From a virus: a DNA stretch of 38,057 nucleotides. A program made the translations under genes and the position numbers. Below are positions 10,070-35,230 of this stretch, one piece after another (position 1 is the stretch's first letter; every line of letters starts with the position of its first letter). The stretch covers positions 1-38,057 of the IMG/VR virus record IMGVR_UViG_3300034198_006175, one strand, 5' to 3'. The notes beneath the pieces are model-generated. The model was not told the origin of the DNA. It was given only the letters and a program-made list of their open reading frames with translations, and did not search any database.

Positions 10070-10762
10070 ATGTCTGGCTCCGTTCGCCTTTCTGATTTGT
10101 TCAAATATTACAAGCAAGGACTGCCGTATCAAAGTGCTGCCGTGCAATTGCTTGAAGAGCAGCTCATGAAGACTGCTCCTGAATTGATGAGCAAAAATAA
10201 CGAATGGTTTAAGGTTTGGAGTCAGACTGGAAAGCAAAAATCTCCGATCCTGTCCGTACCCTACGAATGGCAACGTGACAACAAAAGTGGCTCTGGCGGT
10301 CGTGAATGCTTTAGCAGCAGCTCCGCCATGGTCGCAAAGTTCTATGGAAAAGTGGGCAGTGATGACGAGTACAACAGCATTCGCGCTCGTTACGGGGACA
10401 CCACTGATTCCAGCGCTCAACTAAAGGCTTTGCAACACCTAGGACTCCAGGCGGAATTCAAGCAAAACATGGGCCTAGAAGCCCTTGAAAAGGAGCTGAA
10501 AGAGGGTCGTCCAGTGCTGGTTGGATGGTTGCATCATGGGAGCTATAAAGCCCCCTCTGGAGGCGGTCACTGGAGCGTGGCAGTGGGCTTTGATGCGCTT
10601 TCCATCGTTCACAACGACCCGTATGGCACAGCAGACGTGATTCATGGTGGATACATCAGTGGCGAAGGCGGCAAATGTGTTTACTATGGGAAGAAATATT
10701 GGGCTCCCCGCTGGACTGTTGAGGGGCCCAATTCTGGCTGGGCTGTACTGGTCAAACCATGA
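10070..10762 (+). CDS. C39-like cysteine peptidase, candidate endolysin
   Basis: The 230-residue protein has a papain-like C39 fold pattern. Cys80 lies in SGSGGRECFSSSSAMVAKFY, His167 in SGGGHWSVAVGFD, and Asp183 in IVHNDPYG. It lacks a signal peptide. The start has one of the best Shine-Dalgarno sites here (GGAGAGGAGGT just before the ATG), so it should be well translated. Small membrane proteins surround it, which suggests it is the lysin that cuts peptide bridges in the cell wall. It could instead be a virion or processing peptidase. The N-terminal about 55 residues are helical and of unknown role. Confidence 0.78.
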   Translation: MSGSVRLSDLFKYYKQGLPYQSAAVQLLEEQLMKTAPELMSKNNEWFKVWSQTGKQKSPILSVPYEWQRDNKSGSGGRECFSSSSAMVAKFYGKVGSDDEYNSIRARYGDTTDSSAQLKALQHLGLQAEFKQNMGLEALEKELKEGRPVLVGWLHHGSYKAPSGGGHWSVAVGFDALSIVHNDPYGTADVIHGGYISGEGGKCVYYGKKYWAPRWTVEGPNSGWAVLVKP

Positions 10763-11176: not shown

Positions 11177-11302
11177 ATGGAAATTGTCGTTGGCCTATTT
11201 ATGCTCACCACCGGCATTTTCATGACTGGACGCTTGTATCATTTGAATTGTCATCAGCGGGCTCAACAAACGCCCCTTGCTCATCATCAATACCACGACT
11301 AA
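11177..11302 (+). CDS. Tiny single-pass membrane protein (41 aa)
   Basis: MEIVVGLFMLTTGIFMTGRL gives a transmembrane helix at the N-terminus, followed by a His-rich tail (HLNCHQ, then HHQYHD). It lies 20 bases after the preceding gene and overlaps the end of the opposing 122-residue gene by 83 bases. It may be the last gene of the lysis block. There is no family match and only weak start evidence, so it is tentative. Confidence 0.35.
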   Translation: MEIVVGLFMLTTGIFMTGRLYHLNCHQRAQQTPLAHHQYHD

Positions 11303-11588
11303 TTAGATTATGCAAATGCATGTAGTGATTTAGGCCATCGCCATAGTCAATGTTGAAAATATCGTACATTGCGTAGCGGTAGCTACCTTTGTCTTTTACA
11401 TCAGCCTTGTAAATTAATTTGCAAATTTGCCGAAAAGCCCGCGCTCTTTCATCCATTGAAAGACTGTCCCACCAGGCGTCGTCTTCGGCAGACTGAATCA
11501 AATCAGCATGGTGCCACGCTTCGCGAAAAGCCCTCATCCCTGGACTGTTTAAAAAGTCTTGCATTGACATCCCTGGCAAGACTGGCAC
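11220..11588 (-). CDS. Hypothetical acidic protein at the end of the tail operon (122 aa)
   Basis: This is the last gene of the leftward structural block. It has a helical, aromatic middle (WHHADLIQSAEDDAWWDSL, then ERARAFRQICKLIYKA) and an acidic disordered end (DDEQGAFVEPADDNSND). The start given is a GTG; ATGs at 11570 and 11564 are alternatives, the latter with AGGGATG just upstream. Function is unknown. Its 3' end converges on the plus-strand block. Confidence 0.65.
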   Translation of the reverse strand: MPVLPGMSMQDFLNSPGMRAFREAWHHADLIQSAEDDAWWDSLSMDERARAFRQICKLIYKADVKDKGSYRYAMYDIFNIDYGDGLNHYMHLHNLISRGIDDEQGAFVEPADDNSNDTSVQS

Positions 11589-11623: not shown

Positions 11624-13882
11624 CTAAAAATTAATAGTTCGCCGACGTGTTTTGAACGTGCGTGCATCACTGCCGACCACAAGAAATTCGCCAGCAACGG
11701 ATTGGAGTTTATTAGAACCAAGCAACATAACGCCATTGCCTACAAGAGTAAAACTTCCAACGGTTGCGATGATTTGCTGTTGCTTTCTTAGGCCAATTTC
11801 TTGCCCGGTAAGCGCAAAAACACCAGCATTTGAAGCGGAAAGTCGGGTGGCAAGCAGGTTGAATGGATTGCCGGTGACGGAGAAAACACCTCTTTCCGTC
11901 GTCAACATTCGCGTATGTCTAAAGGTTGCAGCATTGCCACTTAATGCATAAACCCTGGTATTTGCAATTAAAGTGCAACCTTTAAGCAATCCAGCCGCCT
12001 TGCCGGTGAGGGCAAATGTTCCCGCAACTGCGGTAAGCGTTCTAAATGGAACGTTTTTGATTAGGTTTGCATTGCTACCATTAACCGCAAAAGAGCCAGT
12101 GGTTGCAATAATGCTTCTATTTACCCTGAAAGTTGCAGCCCTACCTGTCTCGTTAAAAGTGCCAGGCTCGCAAGCAAGGCGATGCCCTTGGAGAAGTATT
12201 GCAGCTCTGCCAACAAGAGCAAATGTTCCCACGCTTGCAGTCAATGTTCGGAATGGCGTGGCAATAGCGAAAGTGGCATTGCCACCACTTACAGTGAATG
12301 CGCCGGGAGATCCAATGACTCTTTGGTTAACTCTGAATGTTGCAATGTTTCCTGTTTCGTTGAAAGTACCAGGCTCGCCAGTAATACGACGTGTTCGGAG
12401 AAGTGCTGCGGCATTACCAGTAAGAGCAAATGTTCCCGCATTTGCTGCAAGCGTTCGGAATGGTGTGGCAATAACAAAGTTGGCAGTATTACCAACAAGC
12501 GTATAATTATTAGATGCGGCAATTACTCTTCGATCTACTCTTAACGCGGCAGCGTTGCCTGTTTCAGAAAATGCTCCAGTTTCCGCAACGAGGCGATGGG
12601 TTGAGCGAAGTGTTGCAGCGCTGCCAGTAACGGCAAAAGTACCAGCGGCCGCGAGGATATTGCGCTGTCCATTGAAAGTGACAGGATTACCCGTTAGCAA
12701 AAATGTGCCTGGGGCAGCAGAAAGAATCGCATTGCGCTTGAAATCAGCAGCGTTGGCTGTCAAGGCAAAGATGCCATTAGAAGCGACAAGTCTTAAGCCA
12801 CGGGTTAGATTTGCTGGACTCCCGGCAGCAGAAAAGGTTGCTTTGTCTGCAATTAATCGTTGGCCATAATTTAAATTAGCGGCATTTCCCGTTAAGACGA
12901 GAGAACCATTTGCACCAAATATACGCTTTTGATTATTAAATCCTGCTCCAGTGCTGCTGACAGTAAAACTGCCAGTGACTGCACCAATAACACTAGTGCG
13001 GATAAAGAAGGCAGCCCTGCCAGTTTCACTGAATATGCCAACGCCAGCGACTAAACGCGGGCCCTTGGCCAGCGACGCAGCTTGGCCGGTCTCGACAAAA
13101 GACCCACTACCGCCAGACAAATAACGTGTGGCTCTTAGTGTTGCAGTGATGCCTGTTATCGCAAAACTGCCGGTAGCGCTAATTAAACGAAGTGCTCGCC
13201 TGAATCCAGCATCATTGCCTGTCTCGGCGAAAGAACCACTTGCGGCAATTAAACGATAATTGCGATTCAAGTTAGCAACGTTGCCAGTGAGCGCAAAAGT
13301 TGCTTTGCTTGCGATTAACCGCCTGCCGTAAATTAAATTAGACGCGCTTCCAGTAAAAGTAAAGACGCCCGCTTCCGCAGCCAGGCGTCGACCTTTGTTG
13401 AGATTGGCAGCATTTCCAACCAGAGCAAAAGTGCCTTGGCTTGCTGTTATCTTGAAGCTACCGTTGAGATTGGCAGCGTTTCCAATCAGAGTAAAATTAC
13501 CTTGACTTGCTGTTATCTTGAAGCCACTGCTGAGATTGGCGGCGTTTCCGGCTAGCGAAAAAGTACCTTTATCGGCAATTAAGCGCCGGTTGTAAATTAA
13601 GCTGGAAGCGTTTCCAGCAAGGGTGAAGATTGCTGTTTCTGCAGCCAATCTTCGGTTTTCACTGAGGCTGGCTGCATTGCCAGTTAATATAAACGTGCCA
13701 ACACTTGCGGCAATTGTATAAGCCGTTGTTGCTGTTGTTGGGCCAACGGCGACAAAAGGTTCGCCAAGGTAGGCAATATCTAAAGTGGTGCTATTAAGCG
13801 CTTTGGCTTCTACATTGACAAATGGTTGGCCTAGATAGACGTAGTCAAGTGTCTCTAAATTGGTGTCACTCGGAAGCGGCAT
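11624..13882 (-). CDS. Tandem-repeat virion protein, 31 x 22 residues (752 aa)
   Basis: After about 55 residues the whole chain is built from 31 copies of a 22-residue unit of the form L-x-A-x-x-G-x-F-x-L-T-G-N-A-A-x-L-x-x-x-R-R; three copies are 25 long. The N-terminus has its own duplicated motif (DYVYLGQPFV and DIAYLGEPFV). The unit looks like two beta strands with a turn, as in a beta solenoid or long fibre shaft. I recall similar repeats in other phage genomes but no named family or known structure. Its place beside tail fibre genes suggests a fibre or adhesion part. The ATG overlaps the end of the preceding gene. Confidence 0.85.
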   Translation of the reverse strand: MPLPSDTNLETLDYVYLGQPFVNVEAKALNSTTLDIAYLGEPFVAVGPTTATTAYTIAASVGTFILTGNAASLSENRRLAAETAIFTLAGNASSLIYNRRLIADKGTFSLAGNAANLSSGFKITASQGNFTLIGNAANLNGSFKITASQGTFALVGNAANLNKGRRLAAEAGVFTFTGSASNLIYGRRLIASKATFALTGNVANLNRNYRLIAASGSFAETGNDAGFRRALRLISATGSFAITGITATLRATRYLSGGSGSFVETGQAASLAKGPRLVAGVGIFSETGRAAFFIRTSVIGAVTGSFTVSSTGAGFNNQKRIFGANGSLVLTGNAANLNYGQRLIADKATFSAAGSPANLTRGLRLVASNGIFALTANAADFKRNAILSAAPGTFLLTGNPVTFNGQRNILAAAGTFAVTGSAATLRSTHRLVAETGAFSETGNAAALRVDRRVIAASNNYTLVGNTANFVIATPFRTLAANAGTFALTGNAAALLRTRRITGEPGTFNETGNIATFRVNQRVIGSPGAFTVSGGNATFAIATPFRTLTASVGTFALVGRAAILLQGHRLACEPGTFNETGRAATFRVNRSIIATTGSFAVNGSNANLIKNVPFRTLTAVAGTFALTGKAAGLLKGCTLIANTRVYALSGNAATFRHTRMLTTERGVFSVTGNPFNLLATRLSASNAGVFALTGQEIGLRKQQQIIATVGSFTLVGNGVMLLGSNKLQSVAGEFLVVGSDARTFKTRRRTINF
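11630..13717 (-). repeat. Coding tandem repeats, 66-bp unit, 31 copies
   Basis: The DNA repeats with a 66-base period within one reading frame. Neighbouring copies differ at many silent and some coding sites, so the array is old or selected at protein level. Pairs such as the copies encoding ITASQGNFTLIGNAANL and ITASQGTFALVGNAANL (near 13420-13530) are nearly identical, which points to recent local duplication. Copies also alternate by type: every third unit near 12030-12530 carries the extra PFRT residues. Confidence 0.85.
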
Positions 13883-14060
13883 CTGTGGCCTCCTCTGTTG
13901 CCATCAATGAGGCAACATACTGTTGAGCGGCCTCTTGAATTTCCTCCATTGTTGGATAGTTTTGAAACTTCAGCAAAACTGCTTTCTCTTCGGTGATACA
14001 GACACGGGCGTACCATTTGGCAGCAATGTCTTGTTCAACAGCGTGAATGTGATAAGTCAT
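13866..14060 (-). CDS. Small hypothetical protein (64 aa)
   Basis: The protein starts MTYHIHAVEQDIAAKWYARV and ends in an acidic helix (EEIQEAAQQYVASLMATEEA). It lies between the tailspike-like gene (stop at 14063, then TC-ATG) and the repeat protein gene, whose start it overlaps by 17 bases. The frame is open further upstream inside the tailspike gene, but the ATG at 14060 fits the coupling. It may be a chaperone or cap for a neighbouring fibre; this is inference. Confidence 0.6.
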   Translation of the reverse strand: MTYHIHAVEQDIAAKWYARVCITEEKAVLLKFQNYPTMEEIQEAAQQYVASLMATEEATDAASE

Positions 14061-14062
14061 GA

Positions 14063-16510
14063 TTAGGCTTGCGCAATGGTAAGGGCGTCTACCCAGCCGG
14101 AATGGGTGGTGCCACCCCACGCCTCAGCAGTAATTTCCACTACACCTGTTTGCGTTGGAGTGAAAGTAATTGTTTGCTGCTCCCAGGCATTAGTAGTTGA
14201 TACTTGTGCCGATACATCAGTAGTAACCCCTGAAATCTGACCACCCTTGCACATTAACCGCATTGTTAACGCGGCATTGTTTATACGCATTTGCGCCGTT
14301 ATCGTTACCAGGCTATTGGCAGCGCAAGCTACCTTGGCCAGGGGCAGTATGAGTGGGGACAAGTCACTGGCCCGGCTATCAAGAGGTTGCAGCTTCCAGC
14401 TATAACCACTTGCCACATATCGTTCATCAACAGCCGAGCTAATATTCCCCATGTTCGCAAAAATTTTATGATTTCCAGGAGTTTGATCGTGATCTTGAGA
14501 TGCAATCCTGATACCTTGCCCCCCACTAAGACTGACTTCGGTGGCACTGGGGAGATTGCAGTTCATAAGGCTGGCCTCAACCGCGGTGCTGCAACTAATG
14601 GATTGAGTGGCCCCCTGCAATTGCAAATCGTAAAACTTACCGCCAATAGCCCTGATAACTGCGCCAACGCTTTGAACATTATTCATGACAAACGTTGCGG
14701 AACCCCTAATGGTTGAGTAGGAGTCAACGTTAACGTCTAAGGCGGTGCCTCCTGCGCTAACAATTGCGTGCTGGAGGTATAGCTTGCTGATTGCTGAGTT
14801 AAAAGTAATAGCATTTTGGAAAGAACCGGCTACGTGGCCAACCGTCATATCAAGCCCAAAGCAATTGCTAAAACTGAACACACCGTTATTATTATTATTT
14901 AAGGCTGTTATATCGTAAATTACATTGTAACAGGTAGCAATATATAAACCATATTGAAATCTGGAAAAAGCAAATTGTTTAACGTCGAGATAACCAAGGA
15001 AATTCATAGACATACCGTAGCCAGCACCGTTTTGACCGTCAAACCAGCTAACACCATCTTGCGTCGACATGTTTGTGCGATCCCATCCGCCAATATAAAT
15101 AATGCGAGAGGTAATGGAACTACCACCCTCTGGGATAGTGAGTGCTGCTGTGGGGGCTGAGGCTGCAGGGGTAAGCCGAAAAGCTTCTCTCTTCCACGTG
15201 GTTACGGTTCCAGTTGCCCCAAAATACCCCCTCCAGTTAGTGGAGGAGGTGGTGTGCGTGGTGTCAGAATCAAGGACAACTCGTCGTCCATTTATATTTT
15301 GAATGCTCCAAAAAGTCTCGCCTGTAATATTTTTGCCAATGAGGCTGTTGAGAGTCAGTGAGTCAGGGGAGCTAGCTGCCTTACATGCAATAATATTGCT
15401 TAAAATAATAGTTTGAGCCCCAAGGTCAGTATTGACGAACAGGGCAATGCTGTTTATGTTTGAACCCAGGTTAGTGGCAAGATCTACAGTAACTGGCTGC
15501 CAACGGTTCAGCACCACCACAGCAGGAATGGAAATAGTGTTCACAGGGGTTTGACCGAGACTGTCAGAACACAACTGAAGCCTAAGAGAGCCCTGAGTGG
15601 CTAGGGTGCCAGATGTTTGCTGTATCCAAAAAGAAACCTGCTGATACCCGCTTAGATTAAGTGTTCCCGTGGGCCGGTATGCAGCCAGGCCAGTGGTAAA
15701 CCCGGAACTAATGATAAAAACATCCCCGTAGAGATGTTCCCTGGTCGTAGTTGTCAGCGCAGAGCTAACGTTTGCGGAGGCCGTCCATGCTGTCGTGCGT
15801 TGCCCAGTGCTTGCAATATTTTGCGTAACAGCAGTATCCAGTATTACAACAGAGTTAGTGCGCCTCCGGGTAATCCCTCCCGAAGTTCGCACGCCCGCAG
15901 CTACACTCCCATCAAGAGAAAAAGTATTTGCATCAATTACTGTGATCTCCCAGAAACCATTGGCAGTAACTGCTCCCGCAACACCCTCAAGAGTTATAGT
16001 GTCTCCCGTGCTGTACCCATGTGCCGCAAGAGTAATTTGTATGGGAGTGGTATCGGTTGCAGCAGATATTACCTTCGTGTTTTCCACGACACCTGAAGTC
16101 CATTTACCATTTATTCCAAGGCTTGTGGGATAAGGACTCGCTTTAAAGCGAACAGTGTCGCCAGGTGCTACTCGCGCCGCTGTTGCGCCATTCAACATAG
16201 TCGCCCACCGACCTCCGATATAATACAGAGTGTCGGTGGATTGGTTGGCCAAGCTTGTTCCACCAGTTATAGCCGTAATCGTTAGCGAAGTTGTTGATAA
16301 CCGCGCCGTAATTCTGTAAACTGCGTATATAAAGCCGTTAAAAATACTGAGATATTGACCAATCAAAGATCCGTCGTTTGGGAAAGATGCACCAACGCTA
16401 CTAAATGTCGTACTAGCAATGCGGCCATTGGTGCCAGAGGCGAGCAGCGCAAAGCTAGTACCTCCGTAGTTGTCGTTACCACCATCGGGATCTATGTACA
16501 GGGTTGCCAT
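14063..16510 (-). CDS. Tailspike/tail fibre protein with beta-helix (815 aa)
   Basis: The protein starts with a phage-type head (YIDPDGGNDNYGG). Residues about 150-212 form a module read as ITLAAHGYSTGDTITLEGV, then NGFWEITVIDANTFSLDGS, the pattern of the ubiquitin-activating-enzyme FCCH-like domain often found in phage tail proteins. A beta-sandwich comes next (about 220-380). An Asn-rich middle (about 390-680, e.g. YNVIYDITALNNNNNGVFSF) fits a right-handed beta-helix like pectate lyases and tailspikes. The last about 100 residues look like a carbohydrate-binding sandwich. It probably binds or cuts a surface polysaccharide; no catalytic residues can be assigned from sequence alone. Confidence 0.75.
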   Translation of the reverse strand: MATLYIDPDGGNDNYGGTSFALLASGTNGRIASTTFSSVGASFPNDGSLIGQYLSIFNGFIYAVYRITARLSTTSLTITAITGGTSLANQSTDTLYYIGGRWATMLNGATAARVAPGDTVRFKASPYPTSLGINGKWTSGVVENTKVISAATDTTPIQITLAAHGYSTGDTITLEGVAGAVTANGFWEITVIDANTFSLDGSVAAGVRTSGGITRRRTNSVVILDTAVTQNIASTGQRTTAWTASANVSSALTTTTREHLYGDVFIISSGFTTGLAAYRPTGTLNLSGYQQVSFWIQQTSGTLATQGSLRLQLCSDSLGQTPVNTISIPAVVVLNRWQPVTVDLATNLGSNINSIALFVNTDLGAQTIILSNIIACKAASSPDSLTLNSLIGKNITGETFWSIQNINGRRVVLDSDTTHTTSSTNWRGYFGATGTVTTWKREAFRLTPAASAPTAALTIPEGGSSITSRIIYIGGWDRTNMSTQDGVSWFDGQNGAGYGMSMNFLGYLDVKQFAFSRFQYGLYIATCYNVIYDITALNNNNNGVFSFSNCFGLDMTVGHVAGSFQNAITFNSAISKLYLQHAIVSAGGTALDVNVDSYSTIRGSATFVMNNVQSVGAVIRAIGGKFYDLQLQGATQSISCSTAVEASLMNCNLPSATEVSLSGGQGIRIASQDHDQTPGNHKIFANMGNISSAVDERYVASGYSWKLQPLDSRASDLSPLILPLAKVACAANSLVTITAQMRINNAALTMRLMCKGGQISGVTTDVSAQVSTTNAWEQQTITFTPTQTGVVEITAEAWGGTTHSGWVDALTIAQA

Positions 16511-16522
16511 TGGGCTCCCCTA

Positions 16523-16957
16523 TCAAGCAAGAGTCAGGATGCCATTAGCCTGGTCGAGGTCAACTGTGAATGTCTCACCAGTTGCTAGCGTTACGGCGCT
16601 GCCGTAGTCCCAGTAGCCAATCAACGGCTTGGCAGGTGATGTCGGTGTATCGTTATAAAGCACCACCCATTGGAAGGGGCCAACGGCTCCAGTGGCTGTA
16701 ACCACGGGATCCGTGCCACCCACGAATTTAAAAGTGCCGGATGTCTGCGAGCCGGTAATTGTACCAACACTTGTACCACCAGCGGTGTACCCGTTACCAG
16801 CGCTGATTTCAGTGATATTAGCCTTTACCGAGTTAGCTGCACTTGGCGCTGTATTGGTGAGCATCACCTTATAAACGTGAGTGGTGCCAGTTTGCATCTG
16901 GTGGACGCCAGAGGCTACGTCAGCGACAAACTGGTTGAACTTGTTAAATGCGGCCAT
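16523..16957 (-). CDS. Conserved phage structural protein (144 aa)
   Basis: The chain MAAFNKFNQFVADVASGVHQ, with VYKVMLTNTAPSAANSVKA, ITEISAGNGYTAGG and a PLIGYWDYG motif near the end, resembles a widespread small phage virion protein of unknown role. It is beta-rich and has no signal or membrane helix. Among the fibre genes it could be a decoration or adaptor protein. Confidence 0.7.
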   Translation of the reverse strand: MAAFNKFNQFVADVASGVHQMQTGTTHVYKVMLTNTAPSAANSVKANITEISAGNGYTAGGTSVGTITGSQTSGTFKFVGGTDPVVTATGAVGPFQWVVLYNDTPTSPAKPLIGYWDYGSAVTLATGETFTVDLDQANGILTLA

Positions 16958-16989: not shown

Positions 16990-17454
16990 CTACACGGCAA
17001 CAGTGATGCTTAGTTCAGTCGGATTGCCGCTAATACTTGAAATTTCAAGCCACAGGAAGTTGTTGGCAGGAATTGGCATGTTCTGGACAGTGGCAGTAGA
17101 AGCAGTGGTCGTGCTGCTCACTACGGTCGAAGCCGTTGCTGCTGTTCCAGCGCTGGAACGATTGGCAGCATACCTTAAGCTATAAGTGACAGACGGACTG
17201 CTTGAGCCTCGCAAGATAGCTGCCACCTGCACTAAGGTCGTACTGGATTGCGTATAAAACAGCGTTAAGTTATCTCCTGCTACTGGGTAGGCAATGGTCA
17301 GGGATTTTGGTGGTCCTGGAGCACCAGACGCGCCTTGAGGGCCGTTTTCACCAGTGACAACCAACTGAACATCGTCACTGCTGACCAATAGTTGAAGTTC
17401 TTCATTGTCAACTAATAATTGAACATCCTCCTTGATGACAACTAAATCATTCAT
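16990..17454 (-). CDS. Collagen-like fibre-associated protein (154 aa)
   Basis: The N-terminus repeats one motif three times (EDVQLLVD, EELQLLVS, DDVQLVVT). Five Gly-X-Y triplets follow (GENGPQGASGAPGPP), which should make a short triple helix. The C-terminal about 100 residues are Ser/Thr-rich beta strands. Short collagen-like stretches join trimeric phage fibre parts. It is a likely small trimeric fibre or tip protein; the target is unknown. Confidence 0.65.
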   Translation of the reverse strand: MNDLVVIKEDVQLLVDNEELQLLVSSDDVQLVVTGENGPQGASGAPGPPKSLTIAYPVAGDNLTLFYTQSSTTLVQVAAILRGSSSPSVTYSLRYAANRSSAGTAATASTVVSSTTTASTATVQNMPIPANNFLWLEISSISGNPTELSITVAV

Positions 17455-17456
17455 GG

Positions 17457-17798
17457 TTAAACTCCGCGCCCAGAAAGTCCTAGATCAATATAAGACGTAC
17501 CTTGCAGCAAATAAGACTTGCTTCCATCGGGTTCAGTCACCAACACGTCGTACTGCCCTTGTTCCGTGATGCCCGATGTCACACTGCTTTGGAGAATTAA
17601 TTTGAAAGTGCCACTGGCCTGATCTGTCCAGGAAGTGGAAAAATTGGCAAGCTTAGCCGTGCCATTCCTGTTCCATAGCTGAGCTGCCACCGTGTAACCG
17701 CTCATGTTTACTGGTACGCCAGAGCCAGTCCTGTATTGCAAGCCAAGGCTAAACGTGGCGCCTTGATGAATTGTAATGTCGTAACGTGCTGGTTCCAT
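17457..17798 (-). CDS. Phage virion protein, BppU-N-like beta domain (113 aa)
   Basis: Single beta domain: YDITIHQGATFSLGLQYRTG, then VNMSGYTVAAQLWNR and GQYDVLVTEPDGSKSYLL. The layout (QGATF start, SGYT strand, D.....P.G....L.G end) matches small N-terminal domains of baseplate proteins and stand-alone virion proteins. It begins 9 bases after the 408-residue gene and ends two bases before the next, so it is co-translated. Function is an attachment or adaptor role by context. Confidence 0.65.
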   Translation of the reverse strand: MEPARYDITIHQGATFSLGLQYRTGSGVPVNMSGYTVAAQLWNRNGTAKLANFSTSWTDQASGTFKLILQSSVTSGITEQGQYDVLVTEPDGSKSYLLQGTSYIDLGLSGRGV

Positions 17799-17807
17799 TT
17801 TGTCAGT

Positions 17808-19034
17808 CTACACTATTTCCACCCAGCCTAATTGTCCCAGGGCCTTAGAGTTTACTTCGCTGTCAACGGTGAGCACAAGGGTATCGCTCACGCCAGAGGC
17901 ATTCACGCCAAGCGCTAAACGAATGGCCGTGTCAATATTGAGATTGACAGACTGCCCTTGTGAAATGATGCCAGTATTGACGATTGTTCCGCCGCTAACG
18001 GCGCTGGCAGTGGTGATAGTTTCAACGTTTCCCCTGCCATTGACCGCAGGGGCCCAAGTGACGCCAGAAAGAGTGGGATTAAGGCGCAGCTTCCATGCCA
18101 CAACATTGGTGCTTTCAGAGGCTACGTCAACTTTTACTGGCAAGATAACATTACCGGTGCGACCGCTGACCATGCGAATACCAGCCGTCACTCGTTCTCC
18201 GCTGGTATTCGGAACACTAGACAGGGAATGATCAATGGAATAGATAGGTCCATCCGGCTCGTAACCACCTTCGCTCAACAAGCTGCAACAAATTTGTTGA
18301 AAAGTAGCCCCACTGGCCTGAGCAGTGCTATTGAAAATTTGATATGAAAATGGGAGGATTGCCGTTTGCATGTATGTTCTACTGAGCCTATTTGCATGGT
18401 TAAATTCGTGGCAATACACAATGGAACCATCAATCACAAAGCCACAACGCACTCTTCCAACACCCAACCATTCAAAATCAGCAGTAAAAATTTGCGCCTT
18501 ACTGAAATCAAGGGCGGGGAAAGTTTCAATGTTCCATTCGGATTGATTGACTACAGTTTCCACCACGCTGCCAGTAGCAAAACTTCTGACGACAAACTGA
18601 AGAGTGGTGCCACTGGCACGCAGCATCACACCATTATTATCGTCAAAATAACCAACTTCTTGAATGAGGCCAGCAGTCAATGGTGCCCCAACAAAACTTT
18701 GCAAAGCAACTAAGCTTTTTCCTGGTTGATACGGAAACCTTTGCTTTGTACGACGAAGAACAGTGTCACCAGAAGCAGTGGTAGTCCGAAGCTCTAGTGT
18801 GCTTGCATTGGTGAGGAAGTTAACATTGCCGCCGCCAGTCGTGATTTCATACCATTGATCAAGCCGCTTGTCAAAGCGCATTGTGCTGTCAAACAGCGTA
18901 TAAGGATTGCTTACACGCTGCCTGCCAAATGCATCTACTGCCCCGCTGTCGGCGCCATAATCAAGAAGATTGCCATATTTGTCAGCAATTACGTGGGTTT
19001 CAAACTGTTCGCCCTGCCTGCTGATTTGACCCAT
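17808..19034 (-). CDS. Phage structural protein (408 aa), fibre or baseplate
   Basis: The protein starts MGQISRQGEQFETHVIADKY. It includes VSNPYTLFDSTMRFDKR and a beta-rich middle (FNHANRLSRTYMQTAILPFS, then SEGGYEPDGP). I recall similar chains annotated as structural proteins in cyanophages. There is no signal peptide. It overlaps the upstream 91-residue gene by 35 bases. Its fold is probably a jelly-roll plus strands; receptor binding is not shown. Confidence 0.7.
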   Translation of the reverse strand: MGQISRQGEQFETHVIADKYGNLLDYGADSGAVDAFGRQRVSNPYTLFDSTMRFDKRLDQWYEITTGGGNVNFLTNASTLELRTTTASGDTVLRRTKQRFPYQPGKSLVALQSFVGAPLTAGLIQEVGYFDDNNGVMLRASGTTLQFVVRSFATGSVVETVVNQSEWNIETFPALDFSKAQIFTADFEWLGVGRVRCGFVIDGSIVYCHEFNHANRLSRTYMQTAILPFSYQIFNSTAQASGATFQQICCSLLSEGGYEPDGPIYSIDHSLSSVPNTSGERVTAGIRMVSGRTGNVILPVKVDVASESTNVVAWKLRLNPTLSGVTWAPAVNGRGNVETITTASAVSGGTIVNTGIISQGQSVNLNIDTAIRLALGVNASGVSDTLVLTVDSEVNSKALGQLGWVEIV

Positions 19035-29272: not shown

Positions 29273-32200
29273 TTAGCGTCGAGGACCAGAAAGCATGCCA
29301 CCGGGCCTTTGTTGCTTGATCAATTCTGACTGGACAGCGGCGCTAATAGCACGTCCCAATTCATTAGCCTTGTCTTCATCTCCCTCCACTGTACTGCCTT
29401 TTGCGTCAACATTCACTACGACGTTAACAGGACCGTTATTGCCATTACTACCGCCCCTGAGGTTCACTGGAACGCTCTTGCCGTCTGGCAGGGGAATCAC
29501 TGCCTCGTTGTAACGCCCTTCGCCTACAAGGCCCAGCGTGGGGCCTGTGACAACGCCTCCAGAAGCAAAAGCACGGAATCCGCCAGGGGCGATGCCACCA
29601 TTGGCAAAGTAGAACGGAAAGCCAGTGCTGTTTCCAATGGCAGAGCTGAAGTTGGTTCCCAATCCAGTTGTCCCTGGAAACTTAAATCCTCCTCCCATGC
29701 CGCCAAGGACGGGACCAAACAATGACTGGAAGCCTTGGAGGAGCATGGTCCTCATCCATGCCGCAATCATTTGGGCAACCATGTCGAGGAATGAATCTGC
29801 CACGCTTTGGAAGAAACCAGCCAGCGCTTCCCGTGCCGTCATTGAGCCGGAAATGACACCCTTGAAAGCTTGGCCAAAGGAGCCGCCAATGGAATCAGCA
29901 AGCCCTCTGTAGCCATCTCGCAATCTGGTAACAGCGGCCAGTTGCTCTTCGAGCCTAACTTTTTCATCAGCTTGCCCTGGAGTAAGGCCTTCTTGTATGT
30001 ATTTCTGCCTCTGTTCAGCTCGTGGATCAATAATCCCTGCAAGCTCAAGCTGTTTGTTAAGGCTGCTAATGCTAGCGTCGAACTGTTGTTGCCTTTGAAG
30101 AACAAGATTGGCATCTAACGAGTCGTTGTATGCAATCATATTTGCAGTTAATTCGGCAATTTTTTTGGTAGCCTCTTCAGCCTTCATCTTCTTCTCTGTC
30201 ACCATCTTGTTTACCACGCTCACGGCCAAAGCTGTTTTTTCCTCCGTTTCAAATTGCTTCATTTGTTTTTCAATCACATCATCCGAAAGCCCACTCTTCA
30301 TCAATTGACCTTTCTTTTCCAGTAAGCTGTTTTGCAACTTTTGCTCTTCAACAGGAGCAATCGAAGCGGTATATTGAGCCCATGCAATTGCAGACTCGCG
30401 AACGGCTTGCGCGTTTGCAATTTGTACGGCCAAGGATTGCTGGGCCAAGGCTAATTGTGTTTTCTGTATTGCCACTTCATCCCGCTTTTCGCTAGCCAGC
30501 ACCTTGCCTGGTGCCCTGGCGCCTGCCGCAGGCCGTTGCAAGTGGCCCACGTCGTACATTGTTCCGTCCGGCCCACGAACAGATGCTGCATAACCAAGAC
30601 CACCCTTTTCTCCAGCTCCAACCATGCTGTAACCGGCTGCAAGATTCAATGGGGTATTGGCTGGTCCTGCAAGATCGACGCCTCTGTGGTAAGTGCTCGC
30701 CCCTGGTACTGGAGCAGTGCGAGGACCATACGGGCTGGTCATTGTTAATTGTTTCGCCACTGACGAATCAAATAATGCGCGAGCTTGCGATTGGCTGAGG
30801 TATGAACCATCCTGCTTTCTCACATCGAAATGAGCGCCGCCAGAAATACCTGTACTGCCTTGGAGAAGTCCAGTGGCACCAGTAGCCGACATTCCTCCAG
30901 GAAGCGCACCGCCCGCCACGCTTCCTTGTGCTTTGAGCACCTCCTTAGACGCTTCAAGCAAAGCTTTTTGGCGCTTCAGGTCAATATCTGACATCTGCCG
31001 CTCAAACTTAATTGCTTCCCTCTGGAAGCTATTCGCACGAGCGTCTCTCAAGTCAAATTGAGCATTAATCCTGTCCACTGCGTCTTGATGCAATGCATCT
31101 TGACGATCCAATTCTGCTTGCGTAAAATTCTTTGCCAGTGCATCTTGAAGACTGTGATAGCTCTCAAGACTTGTTTTCTTCTTCTTGTCATCTTCTCCTG
31201 ACGGGGGAATTGGCTTGAGCGCAGCTTGAGTTTGCTTGTCGCCAGCCATGGCGATCGCGACGGCATTATCTCTTGTTTTTCTTGCGTCTCGCAAATATTG
31301 ATTGGCCCTTATCATTTCGTCATAAGCGTTTTTAGCGGCTTCCTGCATATTTCCCGCCATTACCGCAACACCCATTTGATTTTCTGGACTTGTAGCCGCT
31401 GCTCCAGCCTTGCCCTTTTCGTATCTTGCTGCGTTTTCTGCTGCAAGTTTATATTTGGCTCTTGCGACTATTGCCTTCGTATTAGCTTCCATGTAGACCT
31501 TGGTGGCATCTTCAACCCGCCCCGATCCCGCTATTTCATCTAAGGTTTTTTTCAAACCCGCCACTTCTTGTTTTGACTTATCTGCTGCTCCGCCAATTTC
31601 CAGAATTTTACCAACCAAGAAATCAAGACCCATTAACAGGCCTCCGATAACGATACCGGTGAGAGCAAGCCTCAGTCCAATTGCAGCAACTCTTGCCACG
31701 CCAGTTGCCTGGGTGAATCCAGTAAGGGAAGCAATGTATCTGTAAACTGATTTTATCGCAGCTTCTAAGCCAGTAACCTCTAGCAATTTAAAAGCTGCTG
31801 TAAGAGTTGCGATGCCAGCCGCTGCAAGCACTGCAGCCCTTCCCAGCGGACTGGCAGCAAATGAAATCGCCAGCGAGATTGCATTGACAACTGCTGGCAG
31901 TAATGTTGCAAAGCGTCCGGCCAGGTCAGCAATTGATGCGCCAGCCGCCCGGATAGAGGGCTCTAGTTGCTTGACAGCCAAATAGAAACCCTGTGCCCTA
32001 GGAGTGAGAGTATTGAACCCCTCCCCGGCAGAAGTAAAAGTGGAAGTAAGAACTTGTACTGTTGACGTAACATCTTTAATTAAGTTATTAATTTCAGGGC
32101 CAAAAGCAGCCGCAATATTGTTAACAACGGGAGTCAGGCTCTCATACATTAATCTCAAATTGTTATTAATTTGATTTACCGCACCCTGCAATGTTTTGGC

Positions 32201-35200
32201 AGCACCCTGTGCAGCAGCCCCAAATTTACCACTCAATAACACGCCAACGTTGTCTAGTACGGCGGCCATTGCTTTGCCCTTAAAGGCGCCATCTTCCATC
32301 GCCTTTGTAAACTCTGGCAAGCTCATTTGAGCAGCCTTGGCAAACAACGAGAGGGCGCCAGGCAAAACATCGCCCAGTTGCCCCTTGACTTCTTCAGCCA
32401 TGATCTGGCCCTTGCTCGCCATTTGCGAGAAGGCATTTGTAACACGATCTACTTGATCAGAGCTAAGACCAAAAGCCGCTGCAGATTGCGAAATACCAGT
32501 GAAGAGACTTTCGATTTGACCTTGATCGAAACCGGCTGGCTGCATGGATGCATACAGACGGACAAAGCCTTGTCTTGCGCTTTCCAAGGGCACGTTAAAG
32601 CGCTGGGCAAGACCCTCGACAAAGGCAAATGATTGTTCAAACGTGCCAGACTCAGCGGTAATTGCTTGAAGTTGGTTCTTGTAAGTAGCCAGTCCCTTGG
32701 CAGCATTAAATGCTTCCCCTGGAACATTTTGCAAGAATGCAATAGCTTTGTAAGCAGTGCCAAATAGCAACACTTGCTTGACGGCATTGCCAAACTCGCC
32801 ACCGAGTTGAGAGATTGCACCGGAAACCGGGAATCGTGCAGTATTTAAAAAACCTTTGGCGCCACTGTATGCATTACCAATTGCGCTCAATCCTTTGTTG
32901 ACAGTGTGATAACCAGCCCCTAGCTGAGTGGATGCTGGACCCATTGGAGGGTTATTGCCTCCGCCACCACTACCGCCGCCGCCGCCGCCAAATCCGCCAT
33001 AACCGAAGCCGCCGTAGGGCCCGCCACCGCCAGCGCCACCAAATCCACCGAATCCGCCACTAGCAGTACCACCCCCACCGCCAAATCCGCCATAGCCAAA
33101 ATTGCTGTAGGCCGCTGCAGGAGGTGCTGCTTTGCGGAACATGCGTTGAATAAAACTAAGTTGCGCTGGTCCATCGGAGGGGAATCCTCCCACGGGGGTC
33201 GCGCCATGGGTTGAAAATCCTCCAGCAGGAACAACGTTCGGAGGCCTGTACTGCCGTCTAATGCCTGCGCTACTTTGCCCGATAGGCGGAAGTAGTCGCT
33301 GACCAGCCACGCGCTCGCCCTGAGATCGAACCATTTCGCTAACAGCCACACGCTCAATATTTCCAGGCTGTAGAGCAGCGTGAAAATCCATTAATTGCGC
33401 AGCGCCAATTTCTAAAACTGCTTTGTAGCCAAGCAGGGCCTGCTTAGTGGCGGCAATTGTTGTTCCATCAGTAAGCCCTTGTATGTCAACAGCGCCTTTA
33501 ATTAAAACATTGTCAAGGAAATCTATCCCTTGATTCACCTTCGCCAATGCCTGGCTTAGCAGAGATATTCTCTGTTCAAGACTATCTTCCCAGCCAGCCG
33601 CTACGCCAGCGCCAACCGCTCTTCCTCCCGCAGCTACGCCCCTGCCGACCGCTCGTCCGCCAACGGAAATACCAGTTCCAAGTGCTGCGGCAATACGCGG
33701 TGCATTCTTTTCTGAAAATAACCTACCTTGCTCAACAGCGGCATTTACAAAATTGCCAGTAGTTTCCTTGAATAATGCATAGGTACTGCCATCCGTCAAG
33801 CCACCAATATCTGTCCGCCCCTTGAGGGCTAACGCATTGACTTGCCCAGGAAGAGATTTAAAAGCATTCCCGACGACAGATGGAACTCCTTTCAACCCAT
33901 CTACGACTCTTACGCCTACTTGCGTGACAGTAAGTTGAGCAGCAGCCGTAATGCCTTGAGTGACCAGCGAACTTGTGAAGCCCTTTGCGGCACCCCCGGC
34001 AAACCCAACTCCAGCGAGACCTGCAGCAGTGATAAGCGCACCTTCTGCGCCGTGCTCAATGACTAATTCTGCAACCTTGACAGCACTGCCAAGAAGAGTT
34101 TCCTTTGCAGGCGACCCAGATAGTATATTCTTGGCCAAGTCAATGGCAGTCGTAATAGATTCCCAGCCACCTGCTGCAACTGATCCAGCCCCCATCATGG
34201 CAAGGCCGCCAGGACTGGCCACTGAGCCAATAGCAGAACTTACGCCAGTGCTTAAGCCTTCCTCACCGGCCTTGACGAGCGCTCCTTTTACTGATTTCGT
34301 AGCGCTTATAGCCAGATTGCTTCCAAACTTAGCCAGGGCACCAGCTTGTACTTCAAATTCAACTTGTACGGCTACCGTTAGATCTAAAGCCTTGTTTTTT
34401 GCGTAACTATCAATGCTTTGAAATACCCTGACTGCTCGGGCGCGAAGGTCGGCTGCTGCCGCGCGCTCCCATTTAGCGCCCCCCTTGATCAAACCCAACC
34501 AGAAGCCGTCAGATGTTTGTTCACCAATGCGTTGGGTCCGTTTCGATGGGGAAGCAATTTCAAGATCCTTCTCCAATCCTTTTATATATGCTTCTGCGTC
34601 TGCTTTCGCCTTGCTTGAAAATTCAGAGGATCCCTTGGAGGCAAAGCCAGCAGAGACGGCATCGGCAACTTTGCCAATTTCCCGAACCATCTTGGTTCTA
34701 TTTTTTGTAATTGCTTCGTTGTAAGCAATTATTCCAGTTTCGGCAGCTTTTTTGTACTGTGCCGCAACATCCTCCGTTGATAGTGCGGAGAGCCCTTGAC
34801 GAATGGTCCTTTGTTTAATCGCTGGCCCATTAACCGCTCCTGCATTGCTGGCTACGGACTGAGCATTCTTAACGGCAGTAGCAGCTTCGCCCCTGAGGGC
34901 CTTGAGCGCGTCCTTTGCGTCTCCTATGGCCGATGTATCTACGGCAAACTTTATCTTTGTCAGAGCCTCAAGGTTCTCCTTTAGGCTCCTGGCTTGCTCA
35001 CTTGCGACACCAAGGGATTTAATTTCAACCTTTAAATTGTATTGGCGCCCGCTAATATTCCTGCCTAACTTATTAAATTCCTCCTGAATACCAAGGCGAT
35101 CAAACTTAATATTGATTGGCAGGTGGTACGAAGACGCAGCCGCTCCGAGAGTCGTGAGCTGGCCCCTGAAATAGTTAAGGTCAAAGCCAACGCTTAGCTT

Positions 35201-35230
35201 AAGCTCTGGACTTCCAGCTCCGACTGCCAT
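29273..35230 (-). CDS. Tail tape measure protein H with M23 peptidase insert (1985 aa)
   Basis: This is the longest gene here; it sets tail length and leads DNA entry. The TIGR02675-type core lies at about 875-1060 (GQIESLFTGISQSAAAFGLS, SSDQVDRVTNAFSQMASKGQ). Two hydrophobic segments at about 1130-1210 (AAVLAAAGIATLTA; LALTGIVIGGLLMGLDFLV) could enter the membrane. Residues about 1460-1575 form an M23 LytM-like peptidase (TSPYGPR, STYHRGVDLAGP, YDVGHLQRP). A Gly-rich tract at about 706-763 (GYGGFGGGGG, GFGGFGGAGGGG) is unusual for a tape measure. The end is a typical tail of the family. At 1.5 angstrom per residue an all-helical tape would be about 300 nm, but the folded inserts shorten that. 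Confidence 0.93.
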   Translation of the reverse strand: MAVGAGSPELKLSVGFDLNYFRGQLTTLGAAASSYHLPINIKFDRLGIQEEFNKLGRNISGRQYNLKVEIKSLGVASEQARSLKENLEALTKIKFAVDTSAIGDAKDALKALRGEAATAVKNAQSVASNAGAVNGPAIKQRTIRQGLSALSTEDVAAQYKKAAETGIIAYNEAITKNRTKMVREIGKVADAVSAGFASKGSSEFSSKAKADAEAYIKGLEKDLEIASPSKRTQRIGEQTSDGFWLGLIKGGAKWERAAAADLRARAVRVFQSIDSYAKNKALDLTVAVQVEFEVQAGALAKFGSNLAISATKSVKGALVKAGEEGLSTGVSSAIGSVASPGGLAMMGAGSVAAGGWESITTAIDLAKNILSGSPAKETLLGSAVKVAELVIEHGAEGALITAAGLAGVGFAGGAAKGFTSSLVTQGITAAAQLTVTQVGVRVVDGLKGVPSVVGNAFKSLPGQVNALALKGRTDIGGLTDGSTYALFKETTGNFVNAAVEQGRLFSEKNAPRIAAALGTGISVGGRAVGRGVAAGGRAVGAGVAAGWEDSLEQRISLLSQALAKVNQGIDFLDNVLIKGAVDIQGLTDGTTIAATKQALLGYKAVLEIGAAQLMDFHAALQPGNIERVAVSEMVRSQGERVAGQRLLPPIGQSSAGIRRQYRPPNVVPAGGFSTHGATPVGGFPSDGPAQLSFIQRMFRKAAPPAAAYSNFGYGGFGGGGGTASGGFGGFGGAGGGGPYGGFGYGGFGGGGGGSGGGGNNPPMGPASTQLGAGYHTVNKGLSAIGNAYSGAKGFLNTARFPVSGAISQLGGEFGNAVKQVLLFGTAYKAIAFLQNVPGEAFNAAKGLATYKNQLQAITAESGTFEQSFAFVEGLAQRFNVPLESARQGFVRLYASMQPAGFDQGQIESLFTGISQSAAAFGLSSDQVDRVTNAFSQMASKGQIMAEEVKGQLGDVLPGALSLFAKAAQMSLPEFTKAMEDGAFKGKAMAAVLDNVGVLLSGKFGAAAQGAAKTLQGAVNQINNNLRLMYESLTPVVNNIAAAFGPEINNLIKDVTSTVQVLTSTFTSAGEGFNTLTPRAQGFYLAVKQLEPSIRAAGASIADLAGRFATLLPAVVNAISLAISFAASPLGRAAVLAAAGIATLTAAFKLLEVTGLEAAIKSVYRYIASLTGFTQATGVARVAAIGLRLALTGIVIGGLLMGLDFLVGKILEIGGAADKSKQEVAGLKKTLDEIAGSGRVEDATKVYMEANTKAIVARAKYKLAAENAARYEKGKAGAAATSPENQMGVAVMAGNMQEAAKNAYDEMIRANQYLRDARKTRDNAVAIAMAGDKQTQAALKPIPPSGEDDKKKKTSLESYHSLQDALAKNFTQAELDRQDALHQDAVDRINAQFDLRDARANSFQREAIKFERQMSDIDLKRQKALLEASKEVLKAQGSVAGGALPGGMSATGATGLLQGSTGISGGAHFDVRKQDGSYLSQSQARALFDSSVAKQLTMTSPYGPRTAPVPGASTYHRGVDLAGPANTPLNLAAGYSMVGAGEKGGLGYAASVRGPDGTMYDVGHLQRPAAGARAPGKVLASEKRDEVAIQKTQLALAQQSLAVQIANAQAVRESAIAWAQYTASIAPVEEQKLQNSLLEKKGQLMKSGLSDDVIEKQMKQFETEEKTALAVSVVNKMVTEKKMKAEEATKKIAELTANMIAYNDSLDANLVLQRQQQFDASISSLNKQLELAGIIDPRAEQRQKYIQEGLTPGQADEKVRLEEQLAAVTRLRDGYRGLADSIGGSFGQAFKGVISGSMTAREALAGFFQSVADSFLDMVAQMIAAWMRTMLLQGFQSLFGPVLGGMGGGFKFPGTTGLGTNFSSAIGNSTGFPFYFANGGIAPGGFRAFASGGVVTGPTLGLVGEGRYNEAVIPLPDGKSVPVNLRGGSNGNNGPVNVVVNVDAKGSTVEGDEDKANELGRAISAAVQSELIKQQRPGGMLSGPRR

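Follow-up and report, generated by a model that had tools for sequence, protein, structure and literature searches.

In T5-type phages the lateral fibres are attached by the collar protein LtfC, and the fibre protein LtfA carries an alpha-helical trimerisation bundle (PMC10713586). Modular receptor-binding proteins and tailspikes, such as those of Klebsiella phages, join a conserved N-terminal module to an exchangeable distal part with a beta-helical fold (PMC8262889). Both modular fibres and phage adhesins of beta-helical fold are known kinds.

Here we describe a repeat protein gene in the viral record IMGVR_UViG_3300034198_006175 of IMG/VR (positions 1 to 38,057; this whole stretch of 38,057 bases is referred to as the window). 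As in the lateral fibre systems of T5 and DT57C (PMC10713586), an LtfC-like gene opens the cassette in which the repeat gene lies, and the distal fibre proteins are exchanged among relatives; however, the repeat protein is predicted to be all beta and is tied to the LtfC-like protein by gene order only. With the modular tailspikes (PMC8262889) it shares the conserved N-terminal module, the exchangeable distal part and a predicted beta-helical fold, but it has no catalytic or C-terminal specificity domain and is instead an open-ended array of small units whose number varies. Within the libraries and literature searched, the repeat family, the head-module plug-in logic and the variable coil number seem undescribed.

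A 22-residue repeat gene at the end of a fibre cassette

The encoded protein, whose ATG is immediately preceded by AGAGGAGG, is composed of a 53-aa head, 31 tandem units and an 8-aa tail (Table 1). Twenty-eight units have 22 aa and three (units 19, 22 and 25) have 25 aa. The earlier note had likewise counted 31 units with three 25-residue variants, and its sum of 31 x 22 + 9 = 691 residues matches our unit table, although the coordinates that it gave (11630-13717) were slightly off, the units occupying 11651-13723 on the minus strand. Residue identity within the protein was 0.321 at lag 22, 0.255 at lag 44 and 0.247 at lag 66, compared with a maximum of 0.134 in a shuffle control (n=1000, lags 5-59). 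The most invariant unit positions are G9, F11 and G15, followed by A18 and A6, and in the window T occupies position 14 in 18/31 units and N position 16 in 17/31. The alternation of unit types noticed earlier corresponds to a three-unit super-repeat formed by units 20-21-22 and 23-24-25. Ends of the RRR(x)(I/V)(L/N)xF kind (RRR-N-V/I-L-I-F type) also close proteins with different heads at L139, L117, L119, L052, L063, L181, L215 and L242.

Table 1 Features of the repeat gene, its cassette and a related fusion protein (positions in the window unless a locus is named)
Feature	Position	Strand	Basis or remark
Repeat protein gene	11624..13882	minus	intact ORF, ATG start, 752 aa
Head module, residues 1-53	13724..13882	minus	LDYVYLGQPFV + LDIAYLGEPFV, 22 residues apart
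31 tandem units, residues 54-744	11651..13723	minus	unit table; lag-22 identity 0.32; AlphaFold2 predicted beta-solenoid
Three-unit super-repeat, two copies (units 20-22, 23-25)	12047..12460	minus	pairwise identity 71-74% for 20/23 and 21/24
C-terminal tail TRRRTINF + stop	11624..11650	minus	similar ends in relatives
1985-aa ORF	29273-35230	minus	tape-measure-like from size and place
Virion structural protein, 408 aa, conserved left neighbour	17808..19034	minus	phrog_1645, E 1e-91; 54 related loci
LtfC-like protein, 113 aa, cassette head	17457..17798	minus	PF23926 LtfC, 31 bits (cut-off 27)
154-aa cassette protein	16990..17454	minus	found in L126, partly in L139
144-aa protein	16523..16957	minus	phrog_644 (unknown function), PHROG E 5e-13; stays next to the repeat gene in L139
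815-aa cassette protein	14063..16510	minus	29 related loci; head-module gene next in most
64-aa gene (MTYHIHAVEQD...)	13866..14060	minus	between 815-aa and repeat genes; similar sequence, same place in most relatives
122-aa gene, conserved right neighbour	11220..11588	minus	abuts 408-aa gene in L129, L130, L131
L082 fusion protein	L082:5484-9524	minus	five or so units after ~1,000-residue tail protein, phrog_1101, E 2e-260

Along the minus strand, the 1985-aa ORF is followed by genes for a minor tail protein L, a K-like JAB/NlpC protein and a J-like protein, more structural genes and the 408-aa gene, and the cassette then runs LtfC-like, 154, 144, 815, 64, repeat protein and 122, with the tail operon just upstream. 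An LtfC-like attachment gene within the cassette is what we looked for as the mark of an LtfC-type side tail fibre, and the 113-aa protein also matched phrog_3304 (L-shaped tail fiber protein assembly, E 3e-10). The main GenBank relatives of the 408-aa protein belong to cyanophages (Synechococcus, 34-39% identity), although the tail operon resembles that of lambda. Just past the cassette, at 10070-10762 on the plus strand, lies a papain/C39-like peptidase gene with a phrog_10051 endolysin match.

Next, we compared 54 relatives fetched through the 408-aa gene. The cassette was missing from L129, L130 and L131, whose 408-aa gene is 78-85% identical to that of the window and is followed by the 122-aa gene after about 40 bases, while in L127, L133, L151 and L166 the LtfC-like gene precedes collagen-like, glycine-rich or tail-fibre-like proteins. 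A repeat protein was found only in L126 (the L002 contig) and L139/L140 among the 54, many other contigs of which end early. These data indicate that the repeat protein sits in a swappable fibre slot, since the cassette is missing or differently filled in relatives, and that it is non-essential in this group, since the cassette can be absent.

Predicted fold of the array

Units 1-10 were modelled with AlphaFold2 together with 24 other ten-unit segments (alignment A3, mostly one per locus, no overlaps). The resulting model was all beta, with a mean pLDDT of 91.3 and a pTM of 0.85, and the five models ranged from 79 to 91 in pLDDT. For the full protein the pLDDT was 72, and the strand pattern continued along the array; head residues 1-54 were modelled at low confidence. 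Neither the ten-unit nor the full-length model contained a helix, and the N-terminal strands and alpha-helical trimerisation bundle of LtfA were not found in models of the repeat protein. Because of the missing helix and the low-confidence head, we do not file the protein as an LtfA homologue.

A VIA comparison of the model gave 3p4g as the top match (Z 18.3, rmsd 2.2 over 197 residues), followed by secreted beta-helical adhesins (Z 16-17) and phage tailspikes and fibres (Z 12-14). Both 3p4g and the matched secreted adhesins are right-handed beta-helices. The predicted coil stacking is thus shared with MpAFP (3p4g), HxuA (4i84, Z 16.4) and EtpA (8cpk, Z 16.5), but identity to these is only 10-17%, the repeat unit has no calcium loop and the gene context is that of a phage. 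Foldseek alone gave no match against the PDB at E < 0.1, and the comparison with beta-helices relies on a second look by VIA together with the sequence ladder described below. Among the structures of BFVD, those predicted for the uncultured Caudovirales proteins A0A6J7WAX7 and A0A6J5NQD7 cover the query (TM 0.80, 26-27% identity), although both proteins are longer and carry other domains. A profile search of PDB sequences returned the Lap adhesin 6xi3 at E 1e-4, which was rejected as compositional, being a sum of weak stretches with a best i-Evalue of 0.17. The conserved Asp or glycine-aspartate calcium-binding loop of MpAFP-like RTX repeats is absent from the unit table, the repeat protein contains no recognisable trimerisation or receptor-binding domain, and a check for curli gave no curlin Pfam match, the Foldseek rows labelled 'Curlin associated' being weak.

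The sequence itself carries a regular ladder. Hydrophobic pairs lie at positions 4/6, 11/13 and 18/20, a spacing of seven that fits three faces, and in the window 168/186 cells (90%) at these positions are hydrophobic, compared with 145/496 at the other positions. Charge at these six inward positions is at most 7% family-wide; inward position 13 is Glu in six window units, which is awkward for a solenoid. Of the features expected of a parallel beta-helix or beta-solenoid, stacked parallel strands are thus present in the prediction and an inward hydrophobic ladder in the sequence. The earlier note had proposed stacked beta strands, such as a solenoid shaft, and the prediction (AlphaFold2 pLDDT 91, VIA Z up to 18.3) supports the stacked strands: the array is predicted to fold as a beta-solenoid.

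The head module, unit number and spread of the repeat family

The doublet pattern of the head module matched 33 viral stretches, most of them real and most starting proteins with unrelated distal parts. Head-module context was examined in 29 loci fetched through the 815-aa gene, and in most of those with enough downstream DNA the order was 815-like gene, 64-aa gene, head-module gene. The distal part consists of 22-residue units in the window, L240, L215 and L242, of a short GTWK repeat in L241, L245, L221, L246, L247, L253, L255, L256 and others, and of something else in L250, L257 and L262. This combination of a common head with varied distal parts suggests, by analogy with the logic of modular receptor-binding proteins (PMC8262889), that the head module is likely a docking part. 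The 53-aa head is also widespread as an N-terminal tag (L210-L238), standing nearly alone on proteins of about 95 aa that end with three GTWK repeats. Other tandem repeats behind the head, TTNPTITLNASGLATTDVAF-like or alanine/serine-rich (L209, L218, L222, L226, L228 and L235), may be further rod types.

Behind the same head, the number of units is 31 in the window, 33 in L002/L240, 19 in L215 and 14 in L242; the earlier note had held that a constant repeat number in all relatives would speak against its reading, and the number proved not to be constant. The L002 repeat protein is 80% identical to that of the window, and at the base level most counterpart units agree at 90-100%. Compared with the window, the L002 array starts with one additional unit and also carries a further block of five, four of which look like units 15-18. 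Units 20-22 are absent from it, a fused unit 19/22 is present, and two of its units stand where the window has units 3-5. Across 24 aligned unit pairs, 19 replacement and 25 synonymous codons were counted, with 1/19 replacements at the six inward positions where about five were expected. Judged from these sequences, point changes look constrained whereas whole units come and go. The block duplication and deletion between the window and L002 agree with the ongoing unit duplication suggested earlier, but for the window itself this was overstated: only the pair 4/5 is nearly identical (85% of bases), and Tandem Repeats Finder reported just 2.6 copies on the DNA, units 3-5 alone looking recently duplicated. 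Given this strong divergence (median over all pairs, 45% of bases), the array is mostly old.

To find further members, we searched at the DNA level for pairs of GxF/YxLTG units spaced by 22 codons. This pattern matched at least 120 IMG/VR stretches, and among the matches listed nearly all hold an ORF with repeated 22-residue spacing. A four-unit-block profile tried as a back-translated scan query was too diverse, and the full-length window protein as query recovered one relative only. In about 1,040 collected units a period of 22 dominates, periods of 20 and 24 are less common, and position 16 is mostly Q. The parts flanking the arrays are highly diverse and include short heads such as MLGFSPLASAPLAD, LamG-like domains and tryptophan-rich or charged ends. 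Two near-identical 1122-aa proteins on different contigs (L073 and L061) have equal residue numbers and altered units, a natural pair in which to study unit replacement.

In the GenBank phage collection, relatives occurred in 5 of 50,697 records, and no host is named in any of them; four come from a single spring and the fifth is EBPR siphovirus 2. Four different query members returned this same set. EBPR siphovirus 2 gp72 and the proteins of the Manatee Spring podoviruses share the unit consensus and mostly its spacing, but differ in flanking domains, in having fewer units (8 or so) and in phage type. In the Manatee Spring podoviruses (L003:8935-9669, L005:5000-5734) the open frame continues for about 48 codons ahead of the annotated ATG, a stretch that includes one more unit, so the start is perhaps annotated too late. 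A bacterial instead of a phage home was also considered: in 257 billion bases of bacterial and archaeal genomes the pattern matched 28 stretches, of which about 14 have real arrays. Pfam-A, NCBIfam and PHROGs v4 had no match at cut-off over the window repeat, PHROGs and NCBIfam had nothing for the unit in the other members tried, and no description of the 22-residue repeat family was found in the literature searched. A marginal Lipocalin_4 hit for L139 (23.4 bits, cut-off 22.4) was judged to be chance. One related array is fused to a tail protein (L082), and this speaks for the family being located at the tail, though not directly for the window protein; this fusion also contains a von Willebrand factor A-like domain.

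A candidate host-contact fibre and its alternatives

Overall, the repeat protein is probably the distal, exchangeable component of a cassette for a side tail fibre (adhesin), a solenoid rod with a docking head, host-facing outer faces and gain and loss of units. Its 31 units would be the stacked coils of a right-handed beta-solenoid with three faces. Beta-solenoids rise about 4.8 A per coil, which would make the rod about 15 nm long. The 53-aa head would anchor this rod to the virion, with the LtfC-like, 815-aa or 64-aa protein of the cassette as a probable partner, while the outward faces, which hold nearly all amino-acid changes between relatives and whose residues would be free to vary, may meet the host. 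Unequal recombination between units would add or remove whole coils in frame, changing how long the rod is and which faces it exposes while fold and reading frame stay intact.

Because AlphaFold2 is known to give unrealistic solenoids with high confidence when repeats are perfect (PMC11795689), support for this fold was sought outside its model. The spread in pLDDT among the five models and the inward Glu residues would suit such an artefact, the array then being a disordered or otherwise folded linker. We regard this as improbable, since the units are imperfect and diverse (only about 32% identical in the window), the three-fold ladder is present in the sequence itself, residue changes avoid it, and the bias has been suggested to be perhaps limited to near-perfect repeats (PMC11795689). 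If the solenoid is real, its TGN positions might form flat ladders that bind ice or another surface like the antifreeze region of MpAFP, the protein of the top VIA match, and the counts of T14 and N16 in the window fit this. However, fold likeness alone says nothing of function, the calcium-binding loop of MpAFP is missing from the unit and Q prevails at position 16 across the family; an antifreeze role is hardly credible and was set aside.

The location of the protein also allows other readings. It could be on the virion but outside the tail fibre, as a whisker of the head or neck or as a decoration rod. The adjacent 576-aa and 408-aa genes indeed have hits among PHROGs for head and decoration proteins, and some members of the family occur in podoviruses, which have no long tail, next to genes annotated as capsid or stabilization proteins. 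We hold this to be unlikely, because an LtfC-like gene for fibre attachment heads the cassette, which is exchanged for collagen-like and tail-fibre-like proteins. It is more doubtful still that the protein is a late product acting on, or leaving, the host surface, for example in superinfection block or cell clumping. Secreted bacterial adhesins are among its structural matches and the gene is accessory, being missing in close relatives, but by eye there is no evident signal peptide at the protein start MPLPSDTNLETLDYVYLG, the gene continues the structural genes unbroken and ends the fibre cassette, and a related array is joined to a tail protein in L082.

The side-tail-fibre reading combines a stiff predicted rod with a swappable tail-fibre block, so that the protein is probably a host-contact fibre of variable length. 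A broader proposal, to which we give somewhat less than even credence, is a plug-in fibre system of uncultured siphophages, in which one head behind a fixed LtfC-like/815-like set carries either a GTWK tail or an open-ended solenoid rod whose length drifts by unequal recombination. If this is true, the host-contact part could be swapped or re-lengthened in one step. As the unit occurs in at least 120 uncultured phage stretches, has no entry in the main libraries of protein families and is nearly absent from GenBank phages, many phage proteins labelled 'hypothetical' may in fact be fibre rods. The common head module offers a handle for finding such proteins and for studying how phages swap their host-contact parts, and the variable coil number would let selection on fibre length itself be tested.
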